From: Macrolepiota albuminosa
Lineage: Eukaryota; Basidiomycota; Agaricomycetes; Agaricales; Agaricaceae
DNA: 64,000 nucleotides
Reading direction: 5' to 3'
NCBI GenBank assembly: GCA_027475525.1
Contig: JAMWFC010000055.1
Span: 1-64,000 of the forward strand
Part shown: positions 20,176 to 43,608 of the stretch, in pieces
Layout: each line of letters starts with the position of its first letter
Numbering within the stretch: position 1 is the stretch's first letter
Translations under genes and position numbers: made by a program
Notes under the pieces: model-generated
Database searches by the model: none
Seen by the model: the letters and a program-made list of their open reading frames with translations, nothing else
What the model was told of the DNA's origin: nothing

Positions 20176-23100
20176 ATGAGTAATCCCATACCTGCAGCGC
20201 CCACTAACGGCGGGCGAAATGCCCACGACCTACGGGGAGACCCAGCAGACACCCAGGATGCGTCAGCGTCCAATGCGGGTCAGGTAAGACCCAAGGCTCG
20301 AGACCGAGGTCAGAGTACCGACCTAGCCGGGAATGAGAGCGAGGCCCGGAGAGCTGAAAGCTCACAGCAGGACGGTCCGCAACGCCTCCAAGACAAGATG
20401 CCCGGGGGATTAACGCCCCCAGTTACGCAGTTGCCAGGAGGACCGCAACGGTCTAGCCGATTGGCTTCCAAAGGACCCCCGCAGGACGGCCGACAGTCAA
20501 CCGGCGCCTATGGCGCCCCAGGAGACGCCGAGTCGTCAGTACGGACTGGGAGAACCCTCCCTGCGAGCCGGAGCAGTGGGACCAGGCGGTCCACAGCGGG
20601 CCCAATGCCCTCTAAAGTAGCGGAAGCCCGCTTAGAAGAGGTACCGGAGGAGGCTGCAAGGCCTGAAGGATACCGCGCGGAAGATCGATTTCCGCGCACA
20701 CCAGCAGTGGAGGAAGCTCCGGAGGTTGTAGAGCTTCCAGAGGAGGTGATGGAGTCGTCAAGTGACGACGACGTCGGAGCAGAGGAACAGCGGCTGAAAA
20801 CCGCGTACACCGTGCGCTTGCGGGTGTTCTGGGACTTGCACCCAGAGGTGATGAAATACACCACCCAAGCGCGACTCGAGCGCTACGCGTCAGCCCATAT
20901 AGTAGCACTTAGGCGACAAGGGCACGAAGTGCCCAATGTATTCAGTACGAAATATACTGATTTGATGGTGAGAGTGCTCACTATGGAGCTGCAAATGTAT
21001 GTGCAGCGTAAGGCCACACGGCAATCGGGGGTCTCGACCCCCTGGAGCCACACGTCCGAGGAATGCTCGGCACGACGCAATCAAGACGTCGGAATCGAGC
21101 TAGTGGAGGCACTAGCACGGGCGCAAGAAGTGCCCGAAGTAAGACCGGTGAGTACTTTTTATACTCCAGCAGGACAAGGGTGGCGTGAGGAGCCCCCGCA
21201 CATGCGTAACCATGACCATAGGACAGATATGTCAGGTCCGGATGGGCATGATAGCACTGTGCTCAAAGTGGAAAGCGAGGCATCCGTGATGCCGCGCGTG
21301 CCCATGGCCGAAACATTGAGCGACAGAGTCGCGTACCAACGTATGCGCAATGGCGACCTCAGGACTAAGGGACAGTCCTTTATAGACGATCAGGGCATCG
21401 TATTCGAGGGCACTAAGCCCATTGACGAGATGCGTCGTCAATTCGTCACGCAGGGTCAGGAGAATCAAGCTTCTCCAGGTCCAGGGCGGCGCAACGATCA
21501 TGATCGAGGAGACTTCCTCAATCGAGATGGCGCCACGAGACGTGATGTCCCTGGTAACGGCCAGGATGACGGCCCTAGGTCGATTCCTCGAGACGAGGGC
21601 AATTATGCCCACAGTCGAGGAGGCTCGGGACGTCCCCCGCAAGGTGGACAGGGAAAGTCACTTCCCCATGCCGCTGATTTGGCGACTAGATCCCCGGGTC
21701 AGCAGGAAGCCATCCGAATGCATCGTGAAGCCATGCACGATCGCCTGCATCGAGTAGTCAATGATGCCCTGGGCGTAACCTTATGGTTACCAGACGGAGT
21801 GAAGCTGCGTAAAGCAGACAGTAGGCACATTCACGCCTATACAGGCGCGTCCAAGTTCAGCGACCTGGAAGATTGGGCGATGGATGTATGCACCCATCTT
21901 GCCATGTGCTTATACGGAGGTGACCGTATGGAACGAGAACGAATTTTCGTTCTGCCTGAGTTCTTGGCCGGAGAGGCCATGGGTTGGTTTCGACGGGCAG
22001 TACTGCACGTCAATCGTGTCCAATATGACTGGACGTTTAAAGGAGTCCTTACAGGACTGTACGATCGATTCGTACACCCCTCAACGCTCCAGGATGCAAG
22101 GCGGGACTTCCAGTCCGCCAAGTACACCGAGAAGTTGGGAGTACAAGGGTTCTATGATACCCTTAATGACCATGCCCAGAACATGGCAGTATACCCGGAC
22201 GGGTATACAATGCTCGAAACGTTCTTGGATGGCATTCCAGCGGATATGCACCGCTATTTGATACGTGAGGACAGATTGTCCCCAGAAGTCAACGATGTGG
22301 AAGAATTTGTGGCATATGCCATCCGGTATGAGCAGTCTCTGAAGACTGCTAACCACTACGAACATCGGAGTGGGCACAAAGGGGGACCCAGGCGACTACC
22401 GCCTGGTGGGACACCTTCACGGGGTCAGCATGTGGGGACCTTCCTGGCCAAAAAGACCGATTTGGACCGTGACCGCAACACGCGGTTTGTTGTATGCAGA
22501 ACCCCTGCTGCGAACCGAGGGCTGAGCCGCCCACACCCAGAGCGGGCGCCGGACGGCAAACGTCCTAAACCAAGGCCGGACTTCAAGCCGGCCAACCCAC
22601 CGGGGCAGTCGGGGACTTGTTTCACGTGTGGCCAACCAGGCCACTACGCTACCAACTGCCCTGCAAAGCCAGGACCCCCGAGGAAGGGGTATACACCCCG
22701 CGCCCACCTTCAAGCTGCACATACTGCAGCCGCGAGTGGGAGTGATGGAGACGTATCTGCCGAGTCTGAGGCGGAGCACCCCACAAACGACCAGGAGCCC
22801 CCAGAGGAGGCATCGGGCGCCGAGCCCGAGAGTGTGGTCATGGAGAGGGAGGAGTATGTCACAGTCAACATATATGACGACGTCTACGACAATGAGTATT
22901 ATAGTCGCGACAGCGACTCTGAGTGCCTAGCGGCGATGACGGATTGGCCGCCCACAAATGATCCCGAACGGAATAACATAGTTCGGATGAAGAAGGTGAC
23001 CCTTCGTCGTGCAGAGGGCACTTTGCAGCGCCCAACATTGAAACGAGCAGACAAGGAGTGCCTGGTCTCGTATGTGGACGTAGACGGCCACAAGGCATGG

Positions 23101-23487
23101 ACCCTATGGGACTCTGGGAGTACCATATCGGGCATAACACCCCAGTTTGCCCATGTGTACGGAATATCCGTGCAGGAGTTGGATACGCCATTGGCGTTAC
23201 AGCTGGGCACCGTAGAGAGCCGAGCCATGGTGCAGTATGGGACAAATGTGAATGTCCAAACGCCGGGCTCACGTAGCCGGGAATACATGGATGTAGCGAA
23301 CTTCGATCGCTATGATATGATACTGGGAACGCCATTCATGCGGCGTAACAAAGTCATACTAGACTTTGACCAATGTCAGGTACTAGTGAATGGGAAAGTG
23401 ATCCCAGCCGAACGAGCAACAGCAGACGACACTGATAATCGTCTGCGACGTCATCGCACTACGGAGAAACGCAAGGACTCTCCATGA
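20176..23487 (+). CDS. gag: Element 1 gag-protease polyprotein
   Basis: The ATG at 20176 is the first plausible start in a long frame of about 1,100 codons. Residues 1-500 are hydrophilic and probably disordered. A retrotransposon gag capsid domain follows (about 570-740): FSDLEDWAMDVCTHLA, FLAGEAMGWFRRAV, RDFQSAKYTEKLGVQGFYDTL (discontinuous). A CCHC zinc knuckle, CFTCGQPGHYATNC, lies near 22618-22659 for RNA binding. An aspartic protease has its active site in LWDSGSTISGI (about 23106-23138) and the second conserved motif MILGTPFM (about 23317-23340). The frame ends with TGA at 23485, in the same phase as pol. The gene is saturated with short hairpins. Confidence 0.85.
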   Translation: MSNPIPAAPTNGGRNAHDLRGDPADTQDASASNAGQVRPKARDRGQSTDLAGNESEARRAESSQQDGPQRLQDKMPGGLTPPVTQLPGGPQRSSRLASKGPPQDGRQSTGAYGAPGDAESSVRTGRTLPASRSSGTRRSTAGPMPSKVAEARLEEVPEEAARPEGYRAEDRFPRTPAVEEAPEVVELPEEVMESSSDDDVGAEEQRLKTAYTVRLRVFWDLHPEVMKYTTQARLERYASAHIVALRRQGHEVPNVFSTKYTDLMVRVLTMELQMYVQRKATRQSGVSTPWSHTSEECSARRNQDVGIELVEALARAQEVPEVRPVSTFYTPAGQGWREEPPHMRNHDHRTDMSGPDGHDSTVLKVESEASVMPRVPMAETLSDRVAYQRMRNGDLRTKGQSFIDDQGIVFEGTKPIDEMRRQFVTQGQENQASPGPGRRNDHDRGDFLNRDGATRRDVPGNGQDDGPRSIPRDEGNYAHSRGGSGRPPQGGQGKSLPHAADLATRSPGQQEAIRMHREAMHDRLHRVVNDALGVTLWLPDGVKLRKADSRHIHAYTGASKFSDLEDWAMDVCTHLAMCLYGGDRMERERIFVLPEFLAGEAMGWFRRAVLHVNRVQYDWTFKGVLTGLYDRFVHPSTLQDARRDFQSAKYTEKLGVQGFYDTLNDHAQNMAVYPDGYTMLETFLDGIPADMHRYLIREDRLSPEVNDVEEFVAYAIRYEQSLKTANHYEHRSGHKGGPRRLPPGGTPSRGQHVGTFLAKKTDLDRDRNTRFVVCRTPAANRGLSRPHPERAPDGKRPKPRPDFKPANPPGQSGTCFTCGQPGHYATNCPAKPGPPRKGYTPRAHLQAAHTAAASGSDGDVSAESEAEHPTNDQEPPEEASGAEPESVVMEREEYVTVNIYDDVYDNEYYSRDSDSECLAAMTDWPPTNDPERNNIVRMKKVTLRRAEGTLQRPTLKRADKECLVSYVDVDGHKAWTLWDSGSTISGITPQFAHVYGISVQELDTPLALQLGTVESRAMVQYGTNVNVQTPGSRSREYMDVANFDRYDMILGTPFMRRNKVILDFDQCQVLVNGKVIPAERATADDTDNRLRRHRTTEKRKDSP

Positions 23488-23865
23488 CTTGGCCGGCGCA
23501 GAGTGCCGGCCGTGGAGGATGTGGAGGAGGAAGTGCAGGCTATGCCTGGACTGAGAGCAGACCACAACGTGGTAATGATGAGCGAGGAGGAGTATCAAGC
23601 CTCCAAGAGGAGCGACAAGCGAATAATCGCTCCTGAGATTTGAGGCGCAAGGCCTCCGGACAAACGCCATCAAAAGGCGAGACGACGGGAGGACTCAGTG
23701 GATGTATGCCCACCTACGTCCTCACGAGTCAAGTTGGAAGACTTAAAAGACAGCATCCGAGAGGTGGAAGCCTCAGTAGAGGGGGACACACGGTCCCTAT
23801 AGGAGTGACCAGCTCCCCTACCAGAGTACGACTAGGCATACGACCCCCGAATGCCGCAAGAGTAG
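23488..23865 (+). other. Stop-rich linker between gag-protease and pol
   Basis: gag-protease and pol are in the same phase, but this linker holds five more in-frame stops: TGA 23641, TAG 23800, TGA 23806, TAG 23833 and TAG 23863. With the TGA at 23485 that makes six in 381 bp, against none in the rest of the gag-pol frame. All can be explained by C-to-T changes (CGA to TGA, CAG to TAG). Text between the stops is plausible protein (VPAVEDVEEEVQAMPGLRAD). It may be an unspliced intron, a bypass region or a damaged linker. Confidence 0.55.
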
Positions 23866-26800
23866 AACGAGCTGGTGGCAGCCACGTGTGCGCGATATGC
23901 GCACCAGAGACGGATGACCATCAAACCAGCGTATTGCCAGCCAGCCCCGGACGAGGTATCCATAGCGTACTCGCTTGTACGTGAAGGAAGAAGCCTCGTG
24001 GCTTATAAGACAGCGGCAGCGGGTGCTCCGCTGAGACTACATATACCTGATGACAGTGTCAATCGGGTGCTCGCAATGCGCGAGCAGTATGCACCGCCGC
24101 CTCGGCCACCCTCAGAGACGGTGGAATTACTTCCCCCGGTGCATATGAAGGGGAAGCAGAAGGCGACAAGCCTTCGTGAGGAAGATATTCCTTGGTTGCG
24201 TCAGCAATGGCAAGAAGAATTTGCCGACATGGTCAATGGGACCAAGGAGGAGCTCCTGCCGTGGCGGGAGGTGAACCATGAGATTAATCTCATAGACGAG
24301 AACAAGCAGTATAAGTACCACTTGCCGCGCTGCCCACGCGCCCTCCAGGAGCAACTACGCGATAAGACTAATCGCTATTTGAATGCTCAATGGTGGTCCC
24401 CATGCACCACCGCTCAAGCTGCACCGCTATTGTGCATCCCGAAGAAGGATGGAACCCTTCGAACAGCCCTTGATGCGCGTCAGCGCAATGACAATACCAT
24501 AAAGGATGTAACTCCTTTACCAGATCAAGAGGTGATCTGGGAAGACGTGGCTCGGGCGAAGTATCGCTTGAAGATTGACCTTACTGACGCCTACGAGCAG
24601 GTGCGCATTCGCACCGAGGACGTTCCAAAGACCGTATTTGCGTCGATCATGGGTACATTCACGAGCAATATAATGCAGATCGGAGACTGCAATGCTCCAG
24701 CAACTTTCCAGAGGCTAATGACCTCTATCTTCCGAGACGTAATAGGACGGTTCATGCACGTCTACTTAGATGACATATTCATCTACTCGGATACTATGGA
24801 GGAGCATGAACAGCACCTCAGAGTCGTATTCGAACGACTGCGCAAGTACAAGTTGTACTTGAAGTGGAAAAAATGTGAGCTCTACGCTCAGAGTATAGAC
24901 TGCCTAGGGCATGTCATAGACGAGCGGGGTATCCACCCTGATCAGGACAAGCTCGATCGTATTCGGGAGTGGTGCACGCCCCGAAATTACAATGACATCC
25001 AACGATTCGTTGGCCTTGTCAACTACATATCGAGCTTCTTGCCCGATGTCACAGCCTATACTGGGCCACTTATGGCCATGACGCAGAACGGATCACCGTT
25101 CAATTGGAGGCCGTTGCACCAGCGGTGCTTCGAGATGGTCAAACGGATCTGTACGAAGACTCCGGTGATTCGACCAATCGACCCTAGACGGGACGAGCCA
25201 ATATGGCTCATTTGCAATGCGTCCAAGACAGGCGTCGGAGCCATGTACGGCCAGGGAAGCAGCTGGCAGACGTGCCGCCCAGCAGGGTTCATGTCGAAGA
25301 AGTTTACGACGGCCCAGCAAAACTATGCAGTGCACGAGCTGGAGACTCTTGCCATACTCGAGGCCCTCCTCAAGTGGGAGGATAAGCTGATGGGATATCC
25401 CATCCACATCATAACGGACCACAAGGCCCTTGAGTTCTTTAAAACTCAGGTGAACTTGTCGCCGCGCCAGCGACGGTGGATAGACTACATGTCGAGATAC
25501 CAGTTCGACATCACCTATGTTAAAGGTGAACTCAACAAAGTGGCAGACTGCTTGTCGCGCTACTTTGAGAGTGATGTAGTCGGGGAGGCTCACGAGCCTC
25601 ATGAGTATGTGCAGGCAGACTGCCGCATAGACCCTGATGGAGAGGATTTACCTCTCCACCGATACCAGGAGCTCAGGGAGCATGTCCTGGAAGTACGCGC
25701 TATGCGTGATGATGAACGGAGGCGAAGCACTTGCCTCAGAGAGCAGCGTGAAGAACGGGACGTAGCCGCCCAGTTGCTCAAGGAGCATGAAGCCGTGGAT
25801 CCAGCGTCCACTAGGGAGCACGAGCACCACGATGTACCCGTTACGCTTGCGGAGATGCTCGAAGGCGAATTGCCTTCATCCCAGCCTCCTAGCCTGGTCA
25901 ATGACGACTTCCGGCAGGAGGTGGTGCAGGACTATGGTGATGATCCTCTCTTCGCCGAGATAATTGCCAATCCTGACGACCATCCTCGGTTCAGGCATGA
26001 GCCTGGTGGACTCATCACGACAGAGAACCGTCAAGGGGTGGCGGTGGTATGCCTCCCCCGTACGCGTACCCTTGTTACGCGGGTCTTGGATCAGGCCCAT
26101 GCCCTGGTGGGGCACTTTGGTGCCGCCCGGACGTTGGGCTACATCCGGAGATGGTATTGGTGGCCACGTATGGCCCAAGAAGTGACTAAGTTTTGCGCAT
26201 CATGCGCAGCGTGTCAGAGGGCAAAGTTGCCCCCTGGATCCCCTCCCAGGAAGCTACACCAGCTACCTGTGCTGGTGAAACCCTGGGACTCAATCGGAAT
26301 GGACTTCGTAGGCCCCTTTCCCAAGTCCAGAGGGTTCGATTACCTCTGGGTAGTCATATGCCGCATGACGAGCATGGTGCACCTCATACCGGTGCGAACT
26401 ACGCTGACGGCTAAGGAGCTGTCGTGGATCTACCTGAGGGAGATCGTTAGGCTGCATGGGCTGCCTAGCACCATTGTAAGCGATCGTGACTCGAAGTTCA
26501 CGTCTCAATGGTGGAAAGAACTCCACAAACTGCTAGGAGCGCGACTCCTCATGTCGACGTCCTTCCATCCTCAAACGGATGGGCAGACAGAGCGGGCTAA
26601 CCGCAGTATAGGTCAGATTTTGAGGGCGGTTGTTCGCCCTGACCAACGGGACTGGGTGGACTGGTGTCCACTCACCGAGTTCGCGATTAACGCCAGTGTC
26701 TCGGATACCACAGGGTTTGCGCCCTTTGAACTCAACGGAGGGTACTTGCCCTCCATGCTGCACGAAGTTCGTGCTGATACGGTGGCTCACCGTGGAGTGG

Positions 26801-27333
26801 TCGAGTTCGCCAGGCAGGCCCTGGAGAACATCGCGGCAGCGCATGACGCCATCATAGAGGCGCGAGTCTTCCAGGCAAAAAACGCCAATCACCGTAGGCG
26901 AGCGGACCCGCCAATAGCAGTAGGAGCGTTGGTCTACCTATCAACGCGTAATCTGAAACTCCCAAAGGGACGGGCGAGTAAACTCTGCCCGAAATGGGTA
27001 GGCCCATACCGCGTCCTAGACGCAGAGCCAAGTACCTCCAACTACGTGTTGGAGCTGCCTCTGGCATTACAGGAACGACGCATCGTTCCTAAGTTTCATG
27101 TGTCGCTGTTGCGACCTTACAGCGCGTCTGACGATGCGCTGTTCCCTAACAGGGCAACCCCGGGCCCCTATGATTTTGGGGCTCGAGACGATGACGAATG
27201 GTTCGTCGAGTGCATAATTGGGCACCGGTGGACTGAGCGTAACACGCTCAAGTTTGAAGTACGATGGTCCCTGGGGGACACAACATGGGAGCCACACTCC
27301 CATTGCTCCAAGCTAGCAGCACTTGACCGTTGA
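23866..27333 (+). CDS. pol: Element 1 pol: RT, RNase H, integrase, chromodomain
   Basis: Open from the codon after the last linker stop. RT: PLLCIPKKDGTLRTALDAR, KIDLTDAYEQVRI and the active site YLDD at 24763-24774. RNase H follows (ICNASKTGVGAMYG, ELETLAILEAL, ITDHKALEFF). Integrase has the HHCC zinc finger (HALVGHFGAARTLGYIRR..CASCAACQ) and a D,D,E core (GMDFVGPFP; IVSDRDSKF; DGQTERANR). A GPY/F-like segment (KWVGPYRVL) precedes a chromodomain (WFVECIIGHRWTE, FEVRWSLGDTTWEPHSHC) thought to steer integration to heterochromatin. The frame stops exactly where Element 2 inserts, because its LTR starts TGATGA; the original 19-codon tail survives at 39777-39836. Confidence 0.92.
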   Translation, partial: NELVAATCARYAHQRRMTIKPAYCQPAPDEVSIAYSLVREGRSLVAYKTAAAGAPLRLHIPDDSVNRVLAMREQYAPPPRPPSETVELLPPVHMKGKQKATSLREEDIPWLRQQWQEEFADMVNGTKEELLPWREVNHEINLIDENKQYKYHLPRCPRALQEQLRDKTNRYLNAQWWSPCTTAQAAPLLCIPKKDGTLRTALDARQRNDNTIKDVTPLPDQEVIWEDVARAKYRLKIDLTDAYEQVRIRTEDVPKTVFASIMGTFTSNIMQIGDCNAPATFQRLMTSIFRDVIGRFMHVYLDDIFIYSDTMEEHEQHLRVVFERLRKYKLYLKWKKCELYAQSIDCLGHVIDERGIHPDQDKLDRIREWCTPRNYNDIQRFVGLVNYISSFLPDVTAYTGPLMAMTQNGSPFNWRPLHQRCFEMVKRICTKTPVIRPIDPRRDEPIWLICNASKTGVGAMYGQGSSWQTCRPAGFMSKKFTTAQQNYAVHELETLAILEALLKWEDKLMGYPIHIITDHKALEFFKTQVNLSPRQRRWIDYMSRYQFDITYVKGELNKVADCLSRYFESDVVGEAHEPHEYVQADCRIDPDGEDLPLHRYQELREHVLEVRAMRDDERRRSTCLREQREERDVAAQLLKEHEAVDPASTREHEHHDVPVTLAEMLEGELPSSQPPSLVNDDFRQEVVQDYGDDPLFAEIIANPDDHPRFRHEPGGLITTENRQGVAVVCLPRTRTLVTRVLDQAHALVGHFGAARTLGYIRRWYWWPRMAQEVTKFCASCAACQRAKLPPGSPPRKLHQLPVLVKPWDSIGMDFVGPFPKSRGFDYLWVVICRMTSMVHLIPVRTTLTAKELSWIYLREIVRLHGLPSTIVSDRDSKFTSQWWKELHKLLGARLLMSTSFHPQTDGQTERANRSIGQILRAVVRPDQRDWVDWCPLTEFAINASVSDTTGFAPFELNGGYLPSMLHEVRADTVAHRGVVEFARQALENIAAAHDAIIEARVFQAKNANHRRRADPPIAVGALVYLSTRNLKLPKGRASKLCPKWVGPYRVLDAEPSTSNYVLELPLALQERRIVPKFHVSLLRPYSASDDALFPNRATPGPYDFGARDDDEWFVECIIGHRWTERNTLKFEVRWSLGDTTWEPHSHCSKLAALDR

Positions 27334-28283
27334 TGACGCCCAAAGTTTTGGTCAGTAACAAATGTAACAATTGTGTTACCGTACCAAGAGTGTGCGTTGG
27401 GCGCGCTATAAGTGTGTTGAGGAGTCCCGGGCAGGTCCCAGAGAACGCGTCTGTGAAAAAGGGTAAAAGTCGGTAACGGAGTCGGCAAGTGTCAAGCGCT
27501 AAGGTAAAGCGCTTAAGAAAATGCGGTAAGTGAACACGGCAACGGGAAGCGGCAAGAGCACGGTAAGCTTAGCGAAGTTCTAAGCGTCGATAATGCCTGC
27601 CGTAGTTGCAAGGCGCGAGTATGTCGAGTGTTGGCGAACGTCTGTAACTGCCGATGAGTTCGACGTTGCCGACCGTAGCGTAAATGAGCTCTTGAGCGTA
27701 AGGGAGACTGAAGTAAGTGGGGGAAACTGTGGTCTATTCGTCTGCTGATCGTATGTACAAGTCGGTAAGTAATATATATACTACAAGGAGTTCACCGTCG
27801 CCAGTGACCAACCATCGCCAAAGTGCGGTAAACTGGAAAATTTCATAGGGGTAGCTCCAACAGTTTCAGATTCCTACCGTCCATTCAAGACCCTTGGCGC
27901 CACCAGGCGGCAGATCGCGGTGCTAAATCATCAATCCATCACCCTTCTGTCTGTCAGAAGACCTAAGCGACGTTGGGCGCCAAATCGAGACGGTAAGCGG
28001 TGTCAGACGCCAAGGTCAAACGCCAAGCTGTCCGTCAGTTTTTGATAGATCATCAAGCTTCTCGCTAAGCGCTGTCATCAGTGACTGATGCCATCTGTCA
28101 GTTGTCATTCCTGCTGCCGTCGGCGCTATCATTGATTGGATCTGCTTCTTGCCGTGTCCGGCCGTCAGAAATGGCTTAAAATAGGTAGAACGCGTGCGCT
28201 AAGTTCGGAACGAGTGCGGCAAGGTTTCCGGAGCCGGTGCCGAGCCTGCCGTTGATGCGCCTAACCTATATGGGGTCCTATCA
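27331..28283 (-). repeat. Element 2 3' LTR
   Basis: 953 bp, TGATGACGCCC...GTCCTATCA on the plus strand, matching 38820-39772 at every position I compared. It has many copies of CGGTAA, CGGCAA, CGCTAA, CGCCAA and their complements, more than 20 where about two are expected. Its first bases supply two in-frame TGA stops to Element 1 pol. Confidence 0.93.
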
Positions 28284-28296
28284 TCTCCCCCCAACT
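28284..28296 (-). other. Element 2 polypurine tract
   Basis: Read on the minus strand this is AGTTGGGGGGAGA, directly abutting the start of the 3' LTR. It is the expected primer for plus-strand DNA synthesis and fixes the element orientation as minus. Element 3 has the same tract at 51783-51795. Confidence 0.8.
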
Positions 28297-28452
28297 GAAA
28301 AATTGACTGTCCTCAGTCACCAAATAAGGCTACCGTTACCGCTTTTGTGACAGGTGGTCCGTGCGTTCTTGAGATTTTGTTTATAGTCCTGGCGCGTGAG
28401 TTTGGACTTCGTTTCTTCTCCCCATCTTTTCCTGGCGCTCAATAATAAAAAT

Positions 28453-30741
28453 ATGTCCTTCCGTATTCCAACTCCGCCCCCCGTCCCATCTCGCGAGGCT
28501 CAAGACGCTGCCTCCGCCTACATTGACAAGGCAAACAACTTTATCAGGCGCATCGAGGGTGTAGGCGCGGAGGCGCCTCCAAACTTGGTTGTTGCCGTGA
28601 TGAAGTTGTTAGAGCGCTGGTACGAAGTTCGCGTCCTTGGCGTCGGCTGGGACAGGGAAATTGAGGTGCGGGAGTGGTGCCGGGCGCGTTATATCGATAA
28701 TCGTGGCGCCGACTGGTTAGCGCCTTTTTCTCGCTTTGTAAGTATTTTTAGTCTTTTCCGTGTCGCTAGCTGATTGGGTCCCTAGGCGCCTCCTCCCGTC
28801 CCGACCATTGAGGACGAACTGGAGGACATCCTCTCTGGCGCCTTGCCAATGACGGTAAGCGCGCCAGCGCCTGAGTGAGTATCTCTAACTGTTATTTCTA
28901 ACTTAGCTGTGGTCTGATTTATCTCCTCACAGCAAGCAAGAGGTATTGGCGCCTCTCGCCAACCTGCAGGTCGATGCAGAGATGGCGGCAATTCGTGAGG
29001 AGGCGCTTGCCGAGGCGTCGCGGGACGCCAAGGAAAGAATCCAGGCGCAGGAGGGACGCGAAACTACTGGTGAGGAGGAGGTCGTCGGCAAGGAGCAGGC
29101 GCCTGTTACGAAAAGGCAGGAATCCACCGCCGCCGGGTCTAGCAAAGGTTCGCTTGCCGGTAGTGCCCCGAACCCAGCACTACCGGCAAGCAAAGTGGGT
29201 TCCCCAATCAAGCCAGGCAAGACTTTGAAAAAGAAGGTAAGCCTCATCCTTTCTTGCCGCTGTCGGGCGTCGCTAATCAATTCTTTTAGTCTCGCAAAGG
29301 AAAGGCCCCTCAGTATGCGGTAAGTGGTCTCCAACTGTACTTGAGCCTCTGCTAACCATGAGACAGCTTCCCACCCAGTCCTCTTTCGATGACAAGGAAC
29401 TGAAGGCGTTGCTCTTGCCGCGACGGGAGGAGGTAACTTTGGATGAGGGGATCGAAGCGGGAGTGGAACTCCCAGAAATGAAGAATAAGCGCACAGTGGA
29501 CAAGGCGACCCGCCAAGAGTTCAAAGATTCGCGGGGAGCGGTAAGCAACTATTCTTTTTATGACCTTTCTTCCACTTAACTGATCTTAGTGCGACAAATG
29601 TTGGGCTGACAACGATCCCGAAAGTTGTTGGTTCCCCACTGGCGCCCAACCTTGCTACCGGTGCGGCACTCTCAAGCGTGCCTGTACCATCGATGGCGCC
29701 AAGAGTCGCGAGCGGGGAGGGGCGCCAGACTCCGTTGTTGAGAAGACTTTCTCCCGAGCAGTTTTGGTCAAGCGCGCGAGGGAGTTTGTAGAGAAGCAGA
29801 GGCAGGAGGCTGCCGCCGGAAGAGCAGCCAGTATTAGCAAGTCCTCCTTGGCGCTACCGACACGTCAAGGAGAGGATTCCGAATCTGTCGGCAAGTATGG
29901 CGCTGGCGAGCGCCTAGAAAAACGCAAGGTCTCTTCTCCCGGCAAGGGTAAAGCAAAGGCCAAACGCGTCCGTATCGAGTCGCCATCCCCCTCTCCAAGT
30001 GCTGAGGACAGGGAGATGAAAGAGTTGGAACAGGCCCTTGCCGCGAGTCGCCTGCCCCCTCCTAGCGGAGAGGCCGGTCCCAGTAAATTGCTGTCCCCAA
30101 TTGACTTGGCGGATGGCGCATCTGCTGGCCCGTCCAACGTTGGCGCTCAAACGGGGTCGGCAGCGGAGGACGTTGAGATGGGGGCGCCTGAGGATGTTGA
30201 GAAGTCGGAAGGGACAGGCCAGGGGTCGCCAGGGAAGGAACAGGGGGACGAGGATGCCGAGGGCGACGTGGACGAAACATTGCGGGAGATACCTGGCGAG
30301 TCCCAGGAGTTGCCGCCGGTAGAGCCTGCCGCCCCCTGGGTAAGTGAGGGTGACTTAGCCATGCAGCACTGGACCAGCTCGAGTGGCCCCTCGTCTTGGA
30401 CTCCCCAGCCTCAGCCAAGGGTTGCTGGCGACTCCTATGAGTGGCTGGGGGAAGACCTCGTCTATCCTGTGGTCGCCTTATACCCGCCCCAGGTTATAGA
30501 GCGGATGGCGGTACGTGCGGCAAGCATGCGTGCAGTATTGGGTCGCGAGCGCGAACGAGTCCGGCAACAAATCATGGCTTCGCGACTTCGATACTCCAAT
30601 TTGACCCGTAGTATGGATGCGCTGCAAGAGTACCAAGCCGACTGTAATGAGGCGCTAGAGTGGCAGGCCCTCAACCATGTTCAGGTTGGCGATCTCCTGC
30701 CTTTCGACGATTCCTTGCCGCTCTCTGATGGCGAAGACTGA
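28453..30741 (+). CDS. Element 2 antisense six-exon gene with paired-cysteine motif
   Basis: Lies between pol and the 3' LTR on the strand opposite gag-pol. Exons I infer: 28453-28737, 28786-28874, 28933-29236, 29290-29319, 29367-29540 and 29590-30741. Introns are 47-58 bp with GTAAG or GTGAG donors and AG acceptors. Joined, they give 677 codons without interruption. The start ATG (MSFRIPTPPPVPSR) is conserved in Element 3. The last exon opens with CDKCWADNDPESCW..CYRCGTLKRAC, a C-x2-C-x8-C...C-x2-C-x6-C arrangement reminiscent of fungal zinc-cluster domains. An acidic, Ser/Pro-rich stretch follows, then a conserved tail (SWTPQPQP, WLGEDLVYPVVAL, RLRYSNL). It could bind nucleic acid or regulate transcription; function is unknown. 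Confidence 0.75.
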
Positions 30742-34100: not shown

Positions 34101-35384
34101 AAGGTAGTGAGATCCCGGGAAGAGGGGTGTATCAGGCGTTCGTCGTAGCCAACGTAGAGGCGCCAAACGGAGTTTGAAAGGTAGTGAGATCCCGGGAAGA
34201 GGGTGTATCAGGCGTTCGTCGTAGCCAACGTAGAGATCAAGGGTGGCGCCACAGATGCGCCCGGCAAAGGACTCGGCAAAGTGGTCAGGGAAAGGCGGTA
34301 CGCCAGAGTGTCGTATAGTAACTCTATTCAGCGGCTCCCGGCAAAGGACTCGGCAAAGTGGTCAGGGAAAGGCGGTACGCCAGAGTGTCGTATAGTAACT
34401 CTATTCAGCGGCTCAAGACTGTGAACTATGCGTAGATTGCCGTTCTTTTTGAAGACACAAAACCAACGAGAGCGGTAAGAACTATTGGAGGGTTCGTAAA
34501 CGCCAGCCTGTATTTTGGTCCTAATGATCTGGCAGACCTCGGCTTCGATCCCAGGCGGTAACGGTCGGTTGTGCTCAGTCCACGGTACGTGAGGAATGGT
34601 CGGGATGACGACAGGCGGGAAGAAATCTGTACGTAGACTGCCGCGTTCTGAGTCCTCCCAAGCGAAGGCTTTGTCTTGCTTAGCGACGAGATCGGTAAGG
34701 ACGTTCAACTCATCTTTGGTCAAAAATCCTGTGTCGTGCTCCTTGGCGAACTGCTGCTGGCGTTCTGCGGTAAAACGTCCTGTGGGCTGAAAGGGTGGCG
34801 GATTCGGTGATAAGGCCGGCATGTCGGCAAGAGGGTCGCCAATGATCTGGCGCTCGATTCTGAAAGTCTCGGGAGAGTGCGTAGCGATGGGTTTTGTTTT
34901 AAGCGCAACTGGCTTATATTTCTTTTTAACTTGAACCCCTTTCCTTTTGGGAGCGTTAGCTTGGTTATACACAGATGTGGAAAGGGGAACTGTAGCCTGA
35001 GGAGCGGCAAGTCCAAGAACGGCAGGAGAGCGTTAGCTTGGTTATACACAGATGTGGAAAGGGGAACTGTAGCCTGAGGAGCGGCAAGTCCAAGAACGGC
35101 AGGAGGCGAGGCTCCGGGAGAGTGGTGAGATAAGTATCGGTAGACGCTATATTTTGAAACGATTCAGAGGCGGTAAGATATAAGTACGCTAGAGCTGAGT
35201 CGGTAATATCTGGGTTTTTCTGAGAAAGCTCAGCGTCGGTAACGGTCGAGGAAAGTAAAACTTCTTTGTCAAGATATGCGGTAGACAAAATATTTACAAG
35301 ACCAGTTGAATGGTCATATTCCAGCGTTAGCGCCACATCTCCGTGATCGTCGCCAATCACCTCCTCGATGGTCTGTGAAAACAC
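31175..35384 (-). CDS. pol: Element 2 pol: RT, RNase H, integrase (frames broken by 77-bp duplications)
   Basis: Starts in the -1 frame relative to gag-protease, overlapping it at 35357-35384 (FSQTIEEVIGDDHGDVALTL). RT: FCVFKKNGNLRIVHSLEPL, the TFQTPFGALRLV block present in the sister copy, and active site FIDD in LSFIDDVGVKG, a variant of YLDD. RNase H: PVILAVDTSYIAVGYFLCQ. Integrase zinc finger: HDELGHRGLYATRASLLERF...CHLCQ. The core has IYVDTMHM and IVTDNGAP; the Glu region (ANGLVERPHFD) is visible in Element 3. The tail (KMRPRYLGPLVVISRNRGG) is GPY/F-like and no chromodomain is visible. Duplications at 31884, 33034, 33910, 34081, 34260 and 34951 each shift the frame by two; with one copy discounted the frame appears continuous. 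Confidence 0.82.
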
Positions 35385-38362
35385 CGGTGTGGAGGCTCGT
35401 TGGCGTGTTGGTCGGTAAACTCTGGGGGCTTAGCGCGGGCGCCTTTTCGTTGTCCCCTAGGGAACGTTGGCACCGTTCGTCGGATTCCGGAATTTGGGTC
35501 GCTAATTGTCAGTGTTGTTTCTTCGTCGGTAACAGTCTTGACGACTGATCGCGCCAAGACGTCAAAAGGTCTGCCGAGTAATAAGTCGTATGCTGGGGAG
35601 CGTAAAATGTGTATCTGGAGGTAAAAGGTAATGTCGCCAAGGGTGCACGGCACATTCTTGGCGAGGCCGAGGGATCTGTCTACCGTACCGTTAGCGCTCT
35701 GCATGTTTAGTATCACCGTAGGGTCGGCACATTCTTGGCGAGGCCGAGGGATCTGTCTACCGTACCGTTAGCGCTCTGCATGTTTAGTATCACCGTAGGG
35801 TCGTATATGAGGCCTAGATCGTTAGCGACTTCCGCTGCCATAGAAATAATCTGAGACCCGCTATCCACGATTGCCTCTACTTCGTGCTTGTTGTCTACGG
35901 TTAGCGCTACCGAGCGGATAGCGTGCGATTCTTGGGCGACGGTAAGGATTGCTGGGTCTTCGCCGTGGTCGACTGACCTAAGGTAGGTCTCCACTGGGTC
36001 CACAGAGGTGGCGTTAGCGATGGGGTCGGCAAGAGTGTCTTCAGTGTCGGGAGGGTCGACGGTAACAGAGAAACCAGGAAGCGCGTCGTCGAGTTCATCA
36101 ACCTCGGCAACGGCTGTCGCCAAGGGTCGTCGGGGAGTGACTGCCGTTTTCACCTGATTGCGAACGTCGGGAGCAATACTGCAAAGTTCTTCTACTGACA
36201 AGGTGACGGCGGTTTTCATGATACGGTTAAAAACGTGGTTAGATTTCTCTATGTCGAAAATTGGCGCGGTAGGTCGGTAGCCACCCTCAGGACGTTTCTC
36301 GGGAGCGGCAAAGTTTCGTTGTGCTGGTGCGTGATAACGGTCGGGAATGGTCGGTAGCCACCCTCAGGACGTTTCTCGGGAGCGGCAAAGTTTCGTTGTG
36401 CTGGAGCGTGATAACGGTCGGGAATCCCGGAGTAGGGATGGAGAGGCGGCAAAGGCGGGTCGGGAGCGGTAGCGGACGACGATGGTTCTGAGGCAGGAGC
36501 AGGGGCAGTGGCAGGAGGTGCGGCAGGAGCAGGTGTCGGTAACTTGCTAGCGGGAGGCATTGGCTTATATCCTTTAAGAGGTTGTTTGGGCTGCTTAACT
36601 TCAACCCCATCAAAGACCTGGTTCTTTAGCGAATCTAATTCCTGCTGCAGCTTAGAGGTTGTTTGGGCTGCTTAACTTCAACCCCATCAAAGACCTGGTT
36701 CTTTAGCGAATCTAATTCCTGCTGCAGCTTGGCGATACGTTCTTCTCGCGAGAATGTGGGATGGTCGCCAACGCTGTCGAAGTGTAGGACCTCGTGAATC
36801 ATCTGCTGTTGGGTCGCCTGTTCAGGGTCGGGGTTGGCGTTGCCAGATAGCGTGCCGGTAACGATTTGTCCTGGATTGCGCCTATGCCATTCATCAACTC
36901 GCTCCTGGAAGGACTTCTTGTCTGGGTAGTGCCGGTAACGATTTGTCCTGGATTGCGCCTATGCCATTCATCAACTCGCTCCTGGAAGGACTTCTTGTCT
37001 GGGTAGTTGGGGATGGTGGCGCCAGTGGTAAGAACTATCTTGCCGTCGATAGCCCTTCGAATTCTACCTTGGCGAACGTAATTCTCGAGGGTAGCGCAGC
37101 GTCCTCTAGTCATGGTGTGGCCAATTTCCCCACAGAAGTGGCAAGGGCCAGGTGGTAATTCTCGAGGGTAGCGCAGCGTCCTCTAGTCATGGTGTGGCCA
37201 ATTTCCCCACAGAAGTGGCAAGGGCCAGGCGCGGGTACGTTAGCGGGTCGGTTAGTCCTCTAGTCATGGTGTGGCCAATTTCCCCACAGAAGTGGCAAGG
37301 GCCAGGCGCGGGTACGTTAGCGGGTCGGTTAGCCGTGAGGTTGGTGGTGATCATGGTTTCAATACGCGTCATAGCGGAAGCGACGCGGGTACGTTAGCGG
37401 GTCGGTTAGCCGTGAGGTTGGTGGTGATCATGGTTTCAATACGCGTCATAGCGGAAGCGACAGCAGCGGTAATAGCAGCATTGAGCTCCTCCTTCTTAAC
37501 GAAGTCGGCAGCGGGAGGCGGGATGGGAATGATACCGTTAGTTCGCTCAGGTGGTGGGCTCGTTCTAGCGCGCTGCAGTCCAACGCCAGTGTCCGTTCCC
37601 TTGAGAACCCATTTACCGGCTTCAAAGACGTCGGCAACGTTATAGGGCTCGTCTGGGTGATGAGCCTGATGAACTATCTCTAGGCGACGAGCCCGGCTTC
37701 AAAGACGTCGGCAACGTTATAGGGCTCGTCTGGGTGATGAGCCTGATGAACTATCTCTAGGCGACGAGCTATACGAGTCCAAAGCGAAGTGGGGATGCCT
37801 TGCTGGAACAGGCGACGCTCCTCGTTAATATAGAGCTTGCCGTTCTGCAGAAGCCACCTAGCGACTTTCTGGAACTCGCGGTAATATGTAGAGAATGCGC
37901 CAAGCGACGATGTGCCACTGTCGAAAGATTCCTGTACTAGTTTCTGTAACTCGTTTACCGTGTATCGGGTAGCCTCCTCAGCGCCAGGGTACAGCTGGAT
38001 TACTGCCGTCTTCCAGTCCTCATACGAAGCGCCTTGGGCGGGAGCTGTCGGCGTGGCGGGAACGAGCGCTGCAAACTCGGAAAGACCAGTCCAAGTCTCT
38101 GCCGTGTCATACGATACGTATCTTGCCGCATACTCCTTCATCTGCGTGTGGTCGGTAATGTTACAGTCTCTGAATAAATACTCCAATTCCTTAAAATACT
38201 GGGAGAGCTCCCGTGGCTTGGTCTCGTCCCATTTCGGTGCCGAGAAGTGGTTGCGTGGCGGCATGCGCTGGACTTGTTGTTCCATGGCGACGGCTTGGTC
38301 TCGTCCCATTTCGGTGCCGAGAAGTGGTTGCGTGGCGGCATGCGCTGGACTTGTTGTTCCAT
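35357..38362 (-). CDS. gag: Element 2 gag-protease (frames broken by 77-bp duplications)
   Basis: The first ATG in frame is at 38362 (MEQQVQRMPPRNHF), present twice because of the duplication at 38215. An open stretch without ATG extends upstream to near the primer-binding site. Capsid-like region: WDETKPRELSQYFKELEYLF, YAARYVSYDTAETWTGL, LGAFSTYYREFQKVARW. The zinc knuckle CHFCGEIGHTMTRGRC lies near 37100-37290 and is duplicated by artefact. A proline-rich linker follows, then an aspartic protease (VEAIVDSGSQIISM near 35880 and LLLGRPFDVLARSV near 35580). Ten 77-bp duplications (35648 to 38215) fragment the frame; it ends HRCFHRPSRR at 35357, inside a 28-bp overlap with pol. Confidence 0.78.
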
Positions 38363-38798
38363 GGCGACGGCGGTAACGAGTTCGGTTAGCGGTAGTGGGG
38401 AAGGAGTTCTAGAAATTGGCGACGGGGTAAGAGAAACGAGTTGTGAAAGAGGCGTTAGCGGAGTGATGGGAGTAACTGATTGCGGCAAAGTAAAGGGCGA
38501 CGCTAAGGGGTCGTCGGCACTATAATCAAGGGAATGCGGGAAGAGATCAGGAAAAGCGTCTACAGTGGCGTTCTGTAGTTCCTGGGCTAGAGAGAGACCC
38601 GGTAAGGCACCAGGTGGTTGTGGAGTTGATGGGTGGGAAGGAGCAATGCCTTCTGCCGACTGGTCTAGCAGGCGGCGCCTACGCTGGAGACGGGTTTCTG
38701 GCGGAATTCTGCCTTAGAGATCATGCCTTCTGCCGACTGGTCTAGCAGGCGGCGCCTACGCTGGAGACGGGTTTCTGGCGGAATTCTGCCTTAGAGAT

Positions 38799-38816
38799 CC
38801 CTCGCGGTGGGCTCCA
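38799..38816 (-). other. Element 2 primer-binding site
   Basis: On the minus strand, three bases (AAT) after the end of the 5' LTR, the sequence TGGAGCCCACCGCGAGGG begins with the TGG expected to pair with a tRNA CCA end. Element 3 carries the identical 18-mer at 61321-61338. The tRNA species is not assigned. Confidence 0.7.
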
Positions 38817-38819
38817 ATT

Positions 38820-39772
38820 TGATGACGCCCAAAGTTTTGGTCAGTAACAAATGTAACAATTGTGTTACCGTACCAAGAGTGTGCGTTGGGCGCGCTATAA
38901 GTGTGTTGAGGAGTCCCGGGCAGGTCCCAGAGAACGCGTCTGTGAAAAAGGGTAAAAGTCGGTAACGGAGTCGGCAAGTGTCAAGCGCTAAGGTAAAGCG
39001 CTTAAGAAAATGCGGTAAGTGAACACGGCAACGGGAAGCGGCAAGAGCACGGTAAGCTTAGCGAAGTTCTAAGCGTCGATAATGCCTGCCGTAGTTGCAA
39101 GGCGCGAGTATGTCGAGTGTTGGCGAACGTCTGTAACTGCCGATGAGTTCGACGTTGCCGACCGTAGCGTAAATGAGCTCTTGAGCGTAAGGGAGACTGA
39201 AGTAAGTGGGGGAAACTGTGGTCTATTCGTCTGCTGATCGTATGTACAAGTCGGTAAGTAATATATATACTACAAGGAGTTCACCGTCGCCAGTGACCAA
39301 CCATCGCCAAAGTGCGGTAAACTGGAAAATTTCATAGGGGTAGCTCCAACAGTTTCAGATTCCTACCGTCCATTCAAGACCCTTGGCGCCACCAGGCGGC
39401 AGATCGCGGTGCTAAATCATCAATCCATCACCCTTCTGTCTGTCAGAAGACCTAAGCGACGTTGGGCGCCAAATCGAGACGGTAAGCGGTGTCAGACGCC
39501 AAGGTCAAACGCCAAGCTGTCCGTCAGTTTTTGATAGATCATCAAGCTTCTCGCTAAGCGCTGTCATCAGTGACTGATGCCATCTGTCAGTTGTCATTCC
39601 TGCTGCCGTCGGCGCTATCATTGATTGGATCTGCTTCTTGCCGTGTCCGGCCGTCAGAAATGGCTTAAAATAGGTAGAACGCGTGCGCTAAGTTCGGAAC
39701 GAGTGCGGCAAGGTTTCCGGAGCCGGTGCCGAGCCTGCCGTTGATGCGCCTAACCTATATGGGGTCCTATCA
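38820..39772 (-). repeat. Element 2 5' LTR
   Basis: 953 bp, apparently identical to 27331-28283. It is followed by CCGT, the second copy of the target duplication, and then by the displaced end of Element 1 pol. Confidence 0.93.
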
Positions 39773-39776
39773 CCGT

Positions 39777-39836
39777 TATTTGGAGTTGAAGGGCGTTAAG
39801 CGCCCACATCAATTAAGTAAGCGTGCCGGCGCTTAA
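39777..39836 (+). CDS. pol: Displaced C-terminal tail of Element 1 pol
   Basis: Reading across the empty site (GAC CGT, then TAT TTG) the Element 1 pol frame continues YLELKGVKRPHQLSKRAGA and stops at TAA 39834-39836. The YLE...G..RP pattern is typical of the end of fungal gypsy chromodomain proteins. This shows that Element 2 landed inside the coding region and removed only 19 residues. Confidence 0.85.
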   Translation, partial: YLELKGVKRPHQLSKRAGA

Positions 39837-39938
39837 TTTGATCGGCAGTGCCGATCGCGGCTTGGCTGAGTTAGTCAGCAGCTGTGGCTGAAACACGTCT
39901 TAAAAGGCGAAATTTCTTTTTCGCTTTTTTCCCCAACC

Positions 39939-40879
39939 ATGGACAGCATGCCCGTGGACTTGAGTGAGCAGCAGCAGCAGCAGCTACAGCAGCAGCAGTT
40001 TGAGAGTGCGCCGTCGGTCTTACCGTCAGCTGAAGGGGGGGGGCAGATGGCTCCCCCGCTGAACAGCAGCAGCAGTTTGAGAGTGCGCCGTCGGTCTTAC
40101 CGTCAGCTGAAGGGGGGGGGCAGATGGCTCCCCCGCTGACCCAAAATGCGCCCCAGTGGGGACAATCGCAACCAGCTGTGGGCTTCCCACAGCAGCAGCA
40201 ACCACCAGCGGCGGGCTACCTGCCGCAGCAGCCGGTGATCAGTGGCTATCCGCCACTTCAAACCATGCAGGGCAACTTCATGCCCCAGAACGCACCTGTG
40301 GGCGGCTATCAGCCCCAACAACCAGCACCGGGCGCTTATGCGCCACATCACACCGAGGGCCAATTCCAGCAACAGGCCTACGGGGGGCTAGTCAGCCCCC
40401 AAGCAGCGTCGGCATGGAGGCAGCTTGCCCCTGTACCGGCAACAGGGCAACTGGAGACACATCCTTTTCCCCAGTTTACTGCCCCGGCGCACTACCCTGG
40501 GATGGGTGGTGTGCCCGTAATGATGCCGTACCCCCCGGCTTGGATGGGGGCTTGGGGCGCAATGCCCCAGTACAGCGACTCGCATGAGTCGCAAGCCAAG
40601 GGAGGCCGGTCGATTTCTCTGTCGACCACAGCACCAATTGACAATCTAGAGGGATGCAAAGCATCCCTCATGCAGGCCACCGCAGCCAGTGAGAGTACAG
40701 AAACTCTCAATACAGAACGGAGCATCAGTTCATCGGCTGATGCGCCAACGGAGAGCTTGGCCAAGCTCTCCTTGCTACAGCGGCTGGAAATGCCGCACCC
40801 ATCTCGGAAGAAGAGTCGCGTCCTCGACGCGACAAAGGAAAAGCACGGGCTGTCGAGCCCACTCACAGCCAGGACTTAG
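39939..40879 (+). CDS. Element 1 ORF3, Gln/Pro-rich N-terminal part
   Basis: The ATG at 39939 (MDSMPVDLSEQQQQ) opens a frame split artificially by the 77-bp duplication at 39986. It continues as QNAPQWGQSQPAVGFPQQQQ and many PQQPxxGxY segments, a disordered Gln/Pro/Gly/Tyr-rich region. The frame ends at TAG 40877-40879 and overlaps the next frame (open from 40693). A small indel between about 40693 and 40879 therefore probably separates two parts of one protein. No domain recognised and no membrane segment, so it is not an envelope protein. Confidence 0.6.
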
Positions 40880-43245
40880 TCCTGGCTACCCTTCTCCAAC
40901 GTCTGGGAGATAACGGGTACGATGTACCCGCAGAGTCGTCATTCCTCCGCGATGCGGAGGCAGTCGTCCTCATCTGCCGGATGATGGACAACATGGATCA
41001 TATGCGCGCTCAGCGCAAAACTGATCTCCTTGCCATTTCGGCCACTCGTAAGCGGCAGATTACACCCCCGAGTCGGGACACCGACTCCAGCAAAAGGGCG
41101 CGTCGGCAAGGAGTGGAGGACGCGCCCTCCCGCTCGATTAAGTCGAGCGTTGCTGCCCCTGGCCAGGAGGCCGGTCTAGGACGGGACATCCTCCCTTATG
41201 AAGATGTTCCTGCTCCAGCCGCCCCCCGGCTTATCCAGCGCCTCGCCAGCGGTGCGTCTGAGGTCGCGTCTTCGCGACCAGTATCCGTGGTATCCACCAC
41301 GTACTCTGGGGAGCAGAGTTCCAGGGGCGTGAGCACACACCCCATTGAGGCCAAGGCCTCACAACCCCGAAAGGATCGTTGGGGTAAGCAACCGGAAGGG
41401 CGCGCCTACGTCAACGTGCACTTCCCCGAGGATGCCCCGAAAGGGGCCCCAGGGGCTAACATCCCCTTTTTACCCGCTATACTGGTAGAGGGCCTGCCAG
41501 CCCGACTCCCGCGGTGTGTGTGGGCAATGGACCCACGATCTGAGAAGTCGGAGCCGGAGAGGCTGCCTTCCCCTCCCTCTGACGACGATTGGTATGAGGA
41601 GCCTGAAGAGGCTCGTATGGAATCCCCAGTGCCACACGAGACAGCGGCACAGCGTATGGCGCGCGAACGGCGCAACAGCAATCAACGAGCCAAGATGGAG
41701 CGTCGGGCGCAGAACAGCGCCAAACGAGGGGCCGCCCTCCTTGAGGACGAAACCGGGCGCATCCCTGATGCGCTCGGTGTGGTGATCTACCGTGATCACA
41801 CTATTGAGCGCCAGAACTCATTCTTTGGCGTGGGGTTGGCTCCCCAATTCTATTGGTCGCCAATGACCAATACCATCTTCGTTGGGCAAGAAGCCCGCGC
41901 AGCCAGGTCCTTCGAGGACGATAAACAGGGCAACGCCGCCGCGACGCCCCACAACAGTAAGGTGTACCAAGTTGCACCTCGCGGGTTTCCCCGCAGTCCT
42001 CGAGAAGTCCGCAGACTTCACGCACTGGTTAACAACCAGTTTACGCCGCTTTGTCAGCGTCAGTTGGGCTACCTCTTGCTCAACGAATTCAAGCGGGTGG
42101 CGCTCAACTGCCACCCTACGGCCCGAGACAGAGCTATGTCTCATTTACTCGACGAGGTCGAGTATAGGACTATCGTGGTACCCTTCGCGAGTCCAGAGGA
42201 GCGGGAGAACGTCCCGCGAATGATTGTGCCATTGCGGCTCTATCACCGCAAAGAGGGAGGGAAAATCGCCTTTGTCGGCCTTAACCCCCCTGATCCAAAG
42301 CAACCATTTGCTTTGGACTACCTGGGCTCATATGCCCTCCTCTATGGACGCCCTGGGACGTCCAACGTGTGGACCGGTCTGGCCATGGACCGAGCCATGC
42401 GCATTCATTGGCGCAGCCTCTTTGGGTTTGTGCTTGTACGCGCCCTCAGCGCCAGCCGCCCCTCCAAGGCCACGGTATACAAGTACCTGGCCTACGTCTT
42501 CGCCAGGCCAGGCCTCTACAAAGAGGCCGTGGCTGAGTACGAGGCGGCCACGGGGCAAGCCTTCGAGCCTCTCCACGCCGACGACCCTACCTTCGAGGTT
42601 CGGGCTGTGGACATCCCGGAAGCGTCAGCTTCCGTATTCACCACTTCGGACGTGTTACGCGTCCTTCTTCACAATCAAATTCCGGTCAGCTGGGCTGACC
42701 ACGCGTACACTTATGGGGTCACCTACTTGGCCCATCTATTCTTCAGCGACAGCCGGCTCTACAACGAGGCGGCTGCTATTGACGACGAGAGGCTACAACG
42801 CCTCGACCACTACGGTACACCCCAGTCCATCCCGCAGTGGGATGGGTGGCACGAGGCCACCATTGGCGACCGCCAACGCCTGATGCTCCAGCAGCAGGAC
42901 AGCCGTCGTGCATATGACGATGCGCTTGCCAAGGGGATGTACCTCTCTATCGGGCAAGACATTCATGCCCGCGAAATCTGGACGCGCCAGTACCTGTCCG
43001 ATACCGGGGATCTGCCTGATCCCCAACCATCTGTCCCGGGGTCGACCGTTGACCCCAATCTCACACTGTCCCCCCTCCGGGACTATGACGATTCCCTGCC
43101 AGTAGCAGGGCCTTCGGGTACTTCTTACGCGCCCGCACCCGAGGATGAACTCCTCGACTACGACATGGACGACACGACTGCCGATCCATTCCGGGAGCCT
43201 GGGGGCTCTCCCATTGCCCCTGTCCCTGACTTACCGACGGCATGA
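40693..43245 (+). CDS. Element 1 ORF3, conserved C-terminal part
   Basis: Open from 40693; the first ATG in the body is 40981. The region from about 41740 is well ordered: GRIPDALGVVIYRDHTIERQ, FFGVGLAPQFYWSPMTNTIF, VGQEA, RRLHALVNNQFTPLCQRQLG, DVLRVLLHNQIPVSWADHAY, YGVTYLAHLFF, YGTPQSIPQWDGW. A diverged, broken homologue lies at 47507-48800 and keeps the same order of motifs, so this is a real protein family. It sits between pol and the 3' LTR in sense, where accessory genes of gypsy elements lie. I do not recognise it. It lacks a signal peptide, membrane span or zinc knuckle, is rich in Trp/Tyr and probably mainly helical. Function unknown. Confidence 0.75.
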
Positions 43246-43277
43246 CCGTCGTATTATCTCAAGACCGTAGCTCGGTC

Positions 43278-43603: not shown

Positions 43604-43608
43604 CTGAG

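Follow-up and report, generated by a model that had tools for sequence, protein, structure and literature searches.

Short perfect hairpins along a Ty3/gypsy retrotransposon clade of Macrolepiota albuminosa, probably maintained by selection for local folding

Pervasive folding of coding sequence has been discussed mainly for RNA viruses. In the excerpts of the sources cited here and below, genome-scale ordered RNA structure (GORS) is recognized by a folding energy more than 3% beyond that of sequence-order shuffles (PMC3950689). Coronavirus genomes are reported to show a folding-energy excess near 15% and hundreds of stem-loops, with pairings seldom common to relatives, which has been read as the upkeep of pairing itself (PMC7642675). 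For long terminal repeat (LTR) retrotransposons, probing of the genomic RNA of yeast Ty3 and Ty1 indicated structured regions of up to 30% (PMC11381356). Here, we analyzed a 64,000-nt stretch of the Macrolepiota albuminosa genome (the window; GCA_027475525.1, contig JAMWFC010000055.1, positions 1 to 64,000), which carries the Ty3/gypsy LTR retrotransposon Element 1, with gag, pol and a third open reading frame (ORF3), interrupted by a nested Element 2. Element 1 contains a real and strong excess of short perfect hairpins, which is probably the outcome of selection for local folding.

Compared with dinucleotide shuffles, perfect hairpins in Element 1 were enriched 4-fold at stems of at least 5 bp, 7-fold at stems of at least 6 bp and 12-fold (12.0x) at stems of at least 7 bp. 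Ahead of the nested element (20045-27329), we counted 173 stems of at least 5 bp with loops of 3-9 nt, or one per 42 nt, with 38% of bases inside hairpins; behind it (39778-43289), there were 89 such stems, one per 39 nt, with 41% of bases inside. These spacings bear out an earlier note on this DNA, which described a hairpin about every 25-70 bases. Its count of at least 25 hairpins in 21000-22720 proved conservative, as 48 stems (at least 5 bp, loop 2-9) were found there against 11.3 ± 3.4, with a maximum of 26, in 300 dinucleotide shuffles. All twelve hairpins that it listed are perfect inverted repeats at their positions; four are longer or extendable, namely 22189-22208 (forward strand, perfect 9-bp stem), 24843-24861 (9 bp, loop 1), the hairpin at 22059 (to 7 bp) and the one at 42295, which extends to a perfect 10-bp stem with a loop of 4 (42294-42317, forward strand). 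The note gave its interval as 20176-43245. In a 1-kb scan, the excess began and ended with Element 1, at ~20.0-27.3 kb and 39.5-43.3 kb (for instance, 15 stems of at least 6 bp against 2.0 expected at 40001-41000), and the description holds for these two parts. The middle of that interval, 27.33-39.77 kb, is nested Element 2; most of it lacked the excess, and from 30 to 38 kb its counts were no higher than chance.

The excess persisted when protein, codon usage and dinucleotides were all kept (60 codon- and dinucleotide-preserving shuffles per ORF, loops 3-10). The gag ORF (20176-23487) had 85 stems of at least 5 bp against 27.0 in shuffles and 34 of at least 6 bp against 7.3; the corresponding values were 87 against 29.6 and 40 against 7.5 for pol (23875-27329), and 55 against 19.5 and 30 against 4.5 for ORF3 (40981-43245). 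All three stood above the shuffle mean by z of 8.2-12.5 at 5 bp and 9.3-11.3 at 6 bp. This supports the claim that the stems are made largely by synonymous choice and not by chance. Ten control ORFs in the same test, four from the Helitron region and six from Elements 2 and 3, gave |z| of at most 2.2 at 6 bp, in line with the observation that these elements do not look like Element 1. The untranslated pieces of Element 1 are also hairpin-enriched. At stems of at least 5 bp, the 5' LTR (19809-20044) had 9 against 2.2 expected, which is partly one overlapping AT-rich palindromic stretch, and the leader (20045-20175, hairpins at 20062, 20099 and 20137) had 3 against 0.6 (p 0.02, 200 shuffles). 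The gap between gag and pol (23488-23874) had 7 against 1.8, while 39778-40123 and 40880-40980 had 8 against 2.3 and 3 against 0.6, respectively.

Within this genome (100 Mb, 129 contigs), the hairpin trait is limited to one gypsy clade. At least 104 copies of the reverse transcriptase (RT) region of Element 1 were scored, mostly at 95-99% protein identity. All 20 copies fetched, the window's own included, were hairpin-rich, with 29-38 stems of at least 6 bp per 4.2 kb against ~5-7 expected, compared with none of 30 copies retrieved for a second abundant gypsy family (3-6 against ~4-7). When 20 RT loci were chosen by motif type and a 1.2-kb RT piece was examined, 11 belonged to the Element 1 clade and had 3-10 stems of at least 6 bp against 1.1-2.0; the remaining nine had 0-3 against 1.4-2.3. 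A further four motif types yielded two loci of the L116 family, with 7 and 8 stems against 2.0, and two loci that were unrelated, each with 2 against 1.6-2.0. No relatives were confirmed in viral_contigs. Separately, retrotransposon pol contigs at 30-32% identity were seen in three prokaryotic metagenome-assembled genomes (L138, L139, L140), where hairpins of 5 bp or more were mildly in excess (39 against 27.5, 61 against 47.4 and 49 against 30.5; 1.3-1.6x); these are probably eukaryotic contamination.

Two other families of this clade carried hairpins throughout all three genes, namely L135 (the element of L116) and L136 (the element of L117). Both are 71% identical to Element 1 in pol and 34% identical in ORF3, and the gag identity is 47% for L136 and 48, 55 and 32% in three pieces for L135. 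Third codon positions are only 39-43% identical between families. L135 had 76 stems of at least 6 bp (12.6 expected) and 51 of at least 7 bp (3.5 expected), and L136 had 45 (~12 expected, as a sum of bins) and 31; in codon shuffles of the coding pieces, L135 had 55 against 10.4 ± 3.2 and L136 34 against 9.8 ± 2.6. The pairings themselves are poorly conserved between relatives. In the RT piece, Element 1 had 14-15 of 135 stem pairs in common with L115/L116, none by double change; for L119, the figure was 25-30 of 150, with a single pair arising by double change. The peptide LSRYFES illustrates this, being encoded as TTGTCGCGCTACTTTGAGAG without a hairpin in Element 1 and L117 and as CTCTCGAGGTACTTCGAGAG, a 7-bp hairpin, in L115. 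The compensatory changes that had been expected in relatives were rare, and hairpins were mostly replaced at other sites. A single conserved structure was rejected on the few shared and zero covarying pairs between Element 1 and L115/L116, and three covarying pairs between Element 1 and L121 may reflect CpG decay that occurred independently. At codons within stems, amino acid conservation equaled or slightly exceeded that elsewhere, and pairing of third position on third position was the least enriched.

The geometry of the hairpins points to the folding of a single strand. Across gag, pol, the 251-aa ORF (40124-40879) and ORF3, loops of 3-9 nt were enriched 2.6-5.6 fold and loops of 10-12 nt 1.5-1.9 fold; loops of 0-2 nt reached only 1.1-1.7 fold, and loops of 13-80 nt scattered near 1. 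The enrichment therefore starts at loop 3, the minimum needed when one strand folds. A cruciform or palindrome origin was rejected because loops of 0-2 nt were hardly enriched, and an origin in repeats or low complexity because direct repeats (180 against 151.9 ± 15.8) and mirror repeats (144 against 140.2 ± 14.3) at the same spacing were near chance. Loops were rich in A and T. Folding energy was compared with shuffles in 350-nt windows (16 shuffles for Element 1, L135 and L136; 12 shuffles and at most 24 windows for controls, or 44 for leviviruses). The excess was 17.0% for Element 1, 18.2% for L135 and 10.5% for L136, compared with -4.1% for Element 2 and 0.9% for another gypsy family. When pairs were limited to a span of 30 nt, Element 1 went from an excess of 17.0% to one of 40.2%, which indicates that its structure is short-range. 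With the same limit, Element 2 (30000-38700) and the other gypsy family (L023, L027) fell slightly under their shuffles (-9.4% and -6.9%), contrary to what Element 1 showed. Hairpin-free stretches of at least 50 nt folded better than shuffles in the three families (z -0.8 to -1.2), which marks the perfect hairpins as the extreme of a wider tendency.

Variants among copies were used to compare stem-breaking and stem-making changes with a matched null. For gag-pol, we used a 4.2-kb piece in 20 copies, columns with at least 14 copies, and masked stretches in all 20 (4 to 261 bases; L010, 1488). Stem-breaking variants numbered 46 against 45.3 for singletons, 26 against 31.1 at 2-3 copies and 9 against 19.4 ± 3.4 at 4 or more copies; stem-making variants stayed near the null (15 against 18.3, 13 against 10.8 and 7 against 5.9). 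In ORF3 (61 sequences), the break ratios were 0.73, 0.65, 0.91 and 0.45 at frequencies of 1, 2-3, 4-9 and 10 or more, with the commonest variants breaking stems 9 times against 19.9 ± 3.5. For non-CpG variants, the ratios were 0.74, 0.36, 0.75 and 0.42; the 4-9 class was rich in recurrent CpG transitions. Avoidance of stem-breaking among variants that have spread is therefore in the same direction throughout and of moderate size. An apparent excess of singletons creating stems, in a count that had left out L010, was rejected: 26 of the 42 came from L011, whose first ~260 bases are force-aligned unrelated DNA, and the excess was gone after masking. The idea of a diverged hairpin patch was withdrawn with it. 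The decay of ORF3 copies (L055-L114) was mostly recurrent C to T and G to A at CpG, as cytosine methylation would predict.

Taken together, we consider it likely that selection on one Ty3/gypsy clade of this genome, acting mainly on synonymous codon choice, has favored closely spaced short perfect hairpins from end to end of the element. What is conserved would be how densely the strand folds locally and not the individual hairpins; relatives encode the same protein with hairpins that are for the most part different. A single strand of the element may be held as a chain of small stem-loops, like the GORS of RNA viruses. In our view, it is chiefly the genomic RNA that folds, perhaps along with the complementary DNA (cDNA). 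Folding would likely help Gag to package or compact the element, or protect it against silencing and decay until reverse transcription; we weight the two about equally. A factor borne by the element seems a little likelier than a purely host factor, as hairpin-free gypsy families share the genome. The presence and absence of the trait in gypsy families of one genome also offer a natural experiment with the same host and the same silencing, and the copies of Element 1 would allow direct measurement of selection on structure.

Several observations weigh against this reading. The variant test is moderate and uneven, as stem-breaking in ORF3 was reduced among singletons too (0.73) and barely reduced in the 4-9 class (0.91). 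Three clade loci, L117, L118 and L125, showed little excess in the RT piece, with z of 0.8-1.7 at stems of 5 bp or more. Stem G+C was at chance in Element 1 and below chance in L136, unlike what selection for stability would give, and slightly above chance in L135. The stems are predicted ones, and no common motif stood out among them. Finally, the folding excess of Element 1, L135 and L136 was the same on both strands within error, unlike that of leviviruses, which lean to sense; an RNA role is consequently putative.

This strand symmetry bears on two alternatives. In the first, which we entertain tentatively, the whole genome would be a strand-symmetric chain of perfect hairpins under an intact protein code, with both the RNA and the first-strand cDNA folding, free turnover and density held. 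If true, this would be a generic, sequence-independent device for packaging or against silencing of a type not known from retroelements. In the second, which we regard as rather unlikely, the selected molecule is the single-stranded cDNA or both strands and not the genomic RNA, with hairpins aiding first-strand DNA or preventing sense-antisense annealing. Besides the strand-equal excess in three families, this is favored by loops rich in both A and T and by G-U being tolerated no better than A-C (13 and 14, among pol variants in at least 2 copies). However, all three families leaned slightly to sense (z differences of -0.28, -0.04 and -0.47, with standard errors of 0.24-0.29), and G-U and A-C separate poorly even in E. 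coli rRNA, where stems with one G-U were enriched 1.82x and stems with one A-C 1.31x. The values were 1.8x and 1.3x in Element 1 and 1.16x and 1.29x in L135; G-U against A-C was set aside as a weak test of RNA, given that the differences are small in known structured RNAs too.

The next alternative is mutational: the reverse transcriptase of the clade would switch to its own nascent strand at near-palindromes and copy one arm into the other, so that hairpins accumulate where tolerated and are re-perfected in later cycles. Template switching makes and mends hairpins in RNA genes (PMC8794818), and it too yields perfect short hairpins. Strand symmetry and restriction to one clade fit this process, as does the strong preference for perfect pairing (in L135, stems with any kind of single mismatch were near chance at 1.04-1.29x, and perfect stems of at least 7 bp were enriched 14x). 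Against it, Element 1 showed no one-arm clusters and no stem-making excess. Derived stem changes fell all in one arm in 7 of 18 cases for Element 1 (6.9 expected), 4 of 11 for L135 (4.4) and 0 of 2 for L136 (0.4), a comparison of limited power with 31 stems of at least two derived changes, and stem-making variants were at the null in every frequency class of gag-pol and ORF3. The avoidance of stem-breaking, the lack of a stem-making excess and derived changes on both arms together favor selection over a hairpin-writing process, which we judge distinctly improbable; of the two causes that the earlier note had offered, selection for folding is thus the one favored, and template switching is not.

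The reading of the hairpins as numerous functional RNA elements, each conserved in its own right, is very improbable. Shared stem pairs did exceed shifted controls (Element 1-L115, 14 against 1.0; L119-L115, 30 against 1.1), but most stems were family-specific, and covarying pairs shared with L115/L116 numbered none for Element 1 and one for L119. No repeated stem or loop motif stood out, with few repeated 6-mers or tetraloops, although no formal motif search was made. An origin in composition, repeats or assembly error is scarcely credible: the window does hold 28 exact 77-nt tandem duplications (0 at ten other periods tested), but codon- and dinucleotide-preserving shuffles fall short (z 8.2-12.5 at 5 bp, 9.3-11.3 at 6 bp), neither direct nor mirror repeats stand out from chance, hairpins are missing from a G+C-rich gypsy family in the same assembly, and the duplications touch few hairpins, with one doubled in L135.

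Element 1 lies on the forward strand between target duplications of CTGAG (19804-19808 and 43604-43608). Its 236-bp 5' LTR has TG..CA ends, and its 3' LTR occupies 43291-43526. The gag ORF starts at ATG 20176, is open from 20137 and encodes a zinc knuckle and an aspartyl protease (Pfam zf-CCHC, RVP_2); pol encodes RT, RNase H, integrase and SH3 (Pfam). The LTRs and target duplication, the protease in gag and the pol order RT-RNase H-integrase place the element in Ty3/gypsy. The truncated pol piece of the window and the pol of L136 (1314 aa) both gave no chromodomain hit; PF00385 is given for some pol relatives. Named pol relatives come from Phanerochaete, Trametes, Mycena and Phlebia, in keeping with an agaricomycete host, and relatives were listed at 52-67% identity. 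Nested Element 2 (27330-39772) has 100% identical LTRs at 27330-28283 and 38819-39772 and is outside the finding, with no more hairpins in its ORFs than chance would give. The second part of Element 1 resumes at 39778-40980 with the 251-aa ORF, followed by ORF3 (754 aa), which had no Pfam match and none at E 1e-3 among 7988 scored candidates of a protein collection. ORF3 occurs after pol in all three hairpin-rich families of the genome, at ~34% identity. The 77-nt duplications (e.g., 12320, 13349, 15012, 17592, 33034, 39986, 43449 and 53250) shift frames by two, and the one at 39986 is inside the second part of Element 1; they probably mark joins between contigs of a k=77 assembly whose overlap was left untrimmed. 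Tandem and dispersed repeats, including an array of 60-nt period, lie directly beyond the element (43606-43743 and 44104-44470).

Literature searches, which reached little subscription literature, turned up no LTR retrotransposon described as hairpin-saturated or GORS-like, in agreement with the earlier note, which knew of no described gypsy element with such a pattern. Yeast Ty3 and Ty1 resemble Element 1 in having LTR retrotransposon genomic RNA with structured regions dispersed over the genome; they differ in that the passages of PMC11381356 make no claim of hairpin excess over shuffled sequence. The dispersed packaging signals of single-stranded RNA viruses (PMC6281560, in part) are a candidate parallel, as many genome-wide stem-loops could bind coat protein or Gag. 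Among the hairpins of Element 1, no shared motif stood out, in a comparison of repeated 6-mers and tetraloops without a formal motif search, and their binding by Gag is putative.

Leviviruses, computed here for MS2, Qbeta, PP7 and AP205, share with Element 1 an enrichment of short hairpins, loops from 3 nt, A/T-rich loops and a weak G-U preference. Perfect hairpins of at least 7 bp were enriched 12.0x in Element 1 and 5.2x in leviviruses, and the short-range folding excess was 40.2 against 32.3%, whereas the total excess was 17.0 against 27.7%; leviviruses were sense-biased, and Element 1 was without clear sense bias. Compared with GORS, the folding-energy excess of the three families (17.0, 18.2 and 10.5%, with controls at -4.1 and 0.9%) is beyond 3%, hairpins run through the whole element beyond known signals, and few stem pairs (14-15 of 135) are common to Element 1 and L115/L116. 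GORS differs in belonging to positive-strand RNA virus genomes, whereas Element 1, with LTRs, gag and pol, is an LTR retrotransposon with predicted folding. The closest match in kind, by analogy with the parts of PMC7642675 cited above, is the genome-scale structure of coronaviruses. Element 1 departs from it as an LTR retrotransposon dominated by perfect 5-9 bp hairpins, with strands equal within error and no animal-host persistence. The likeness to both GORS and coronaviruses lies in a folding excess over the whole genome, in coding sequence rich in short-range stem-loops and in pairings that relatives mostly do not share.

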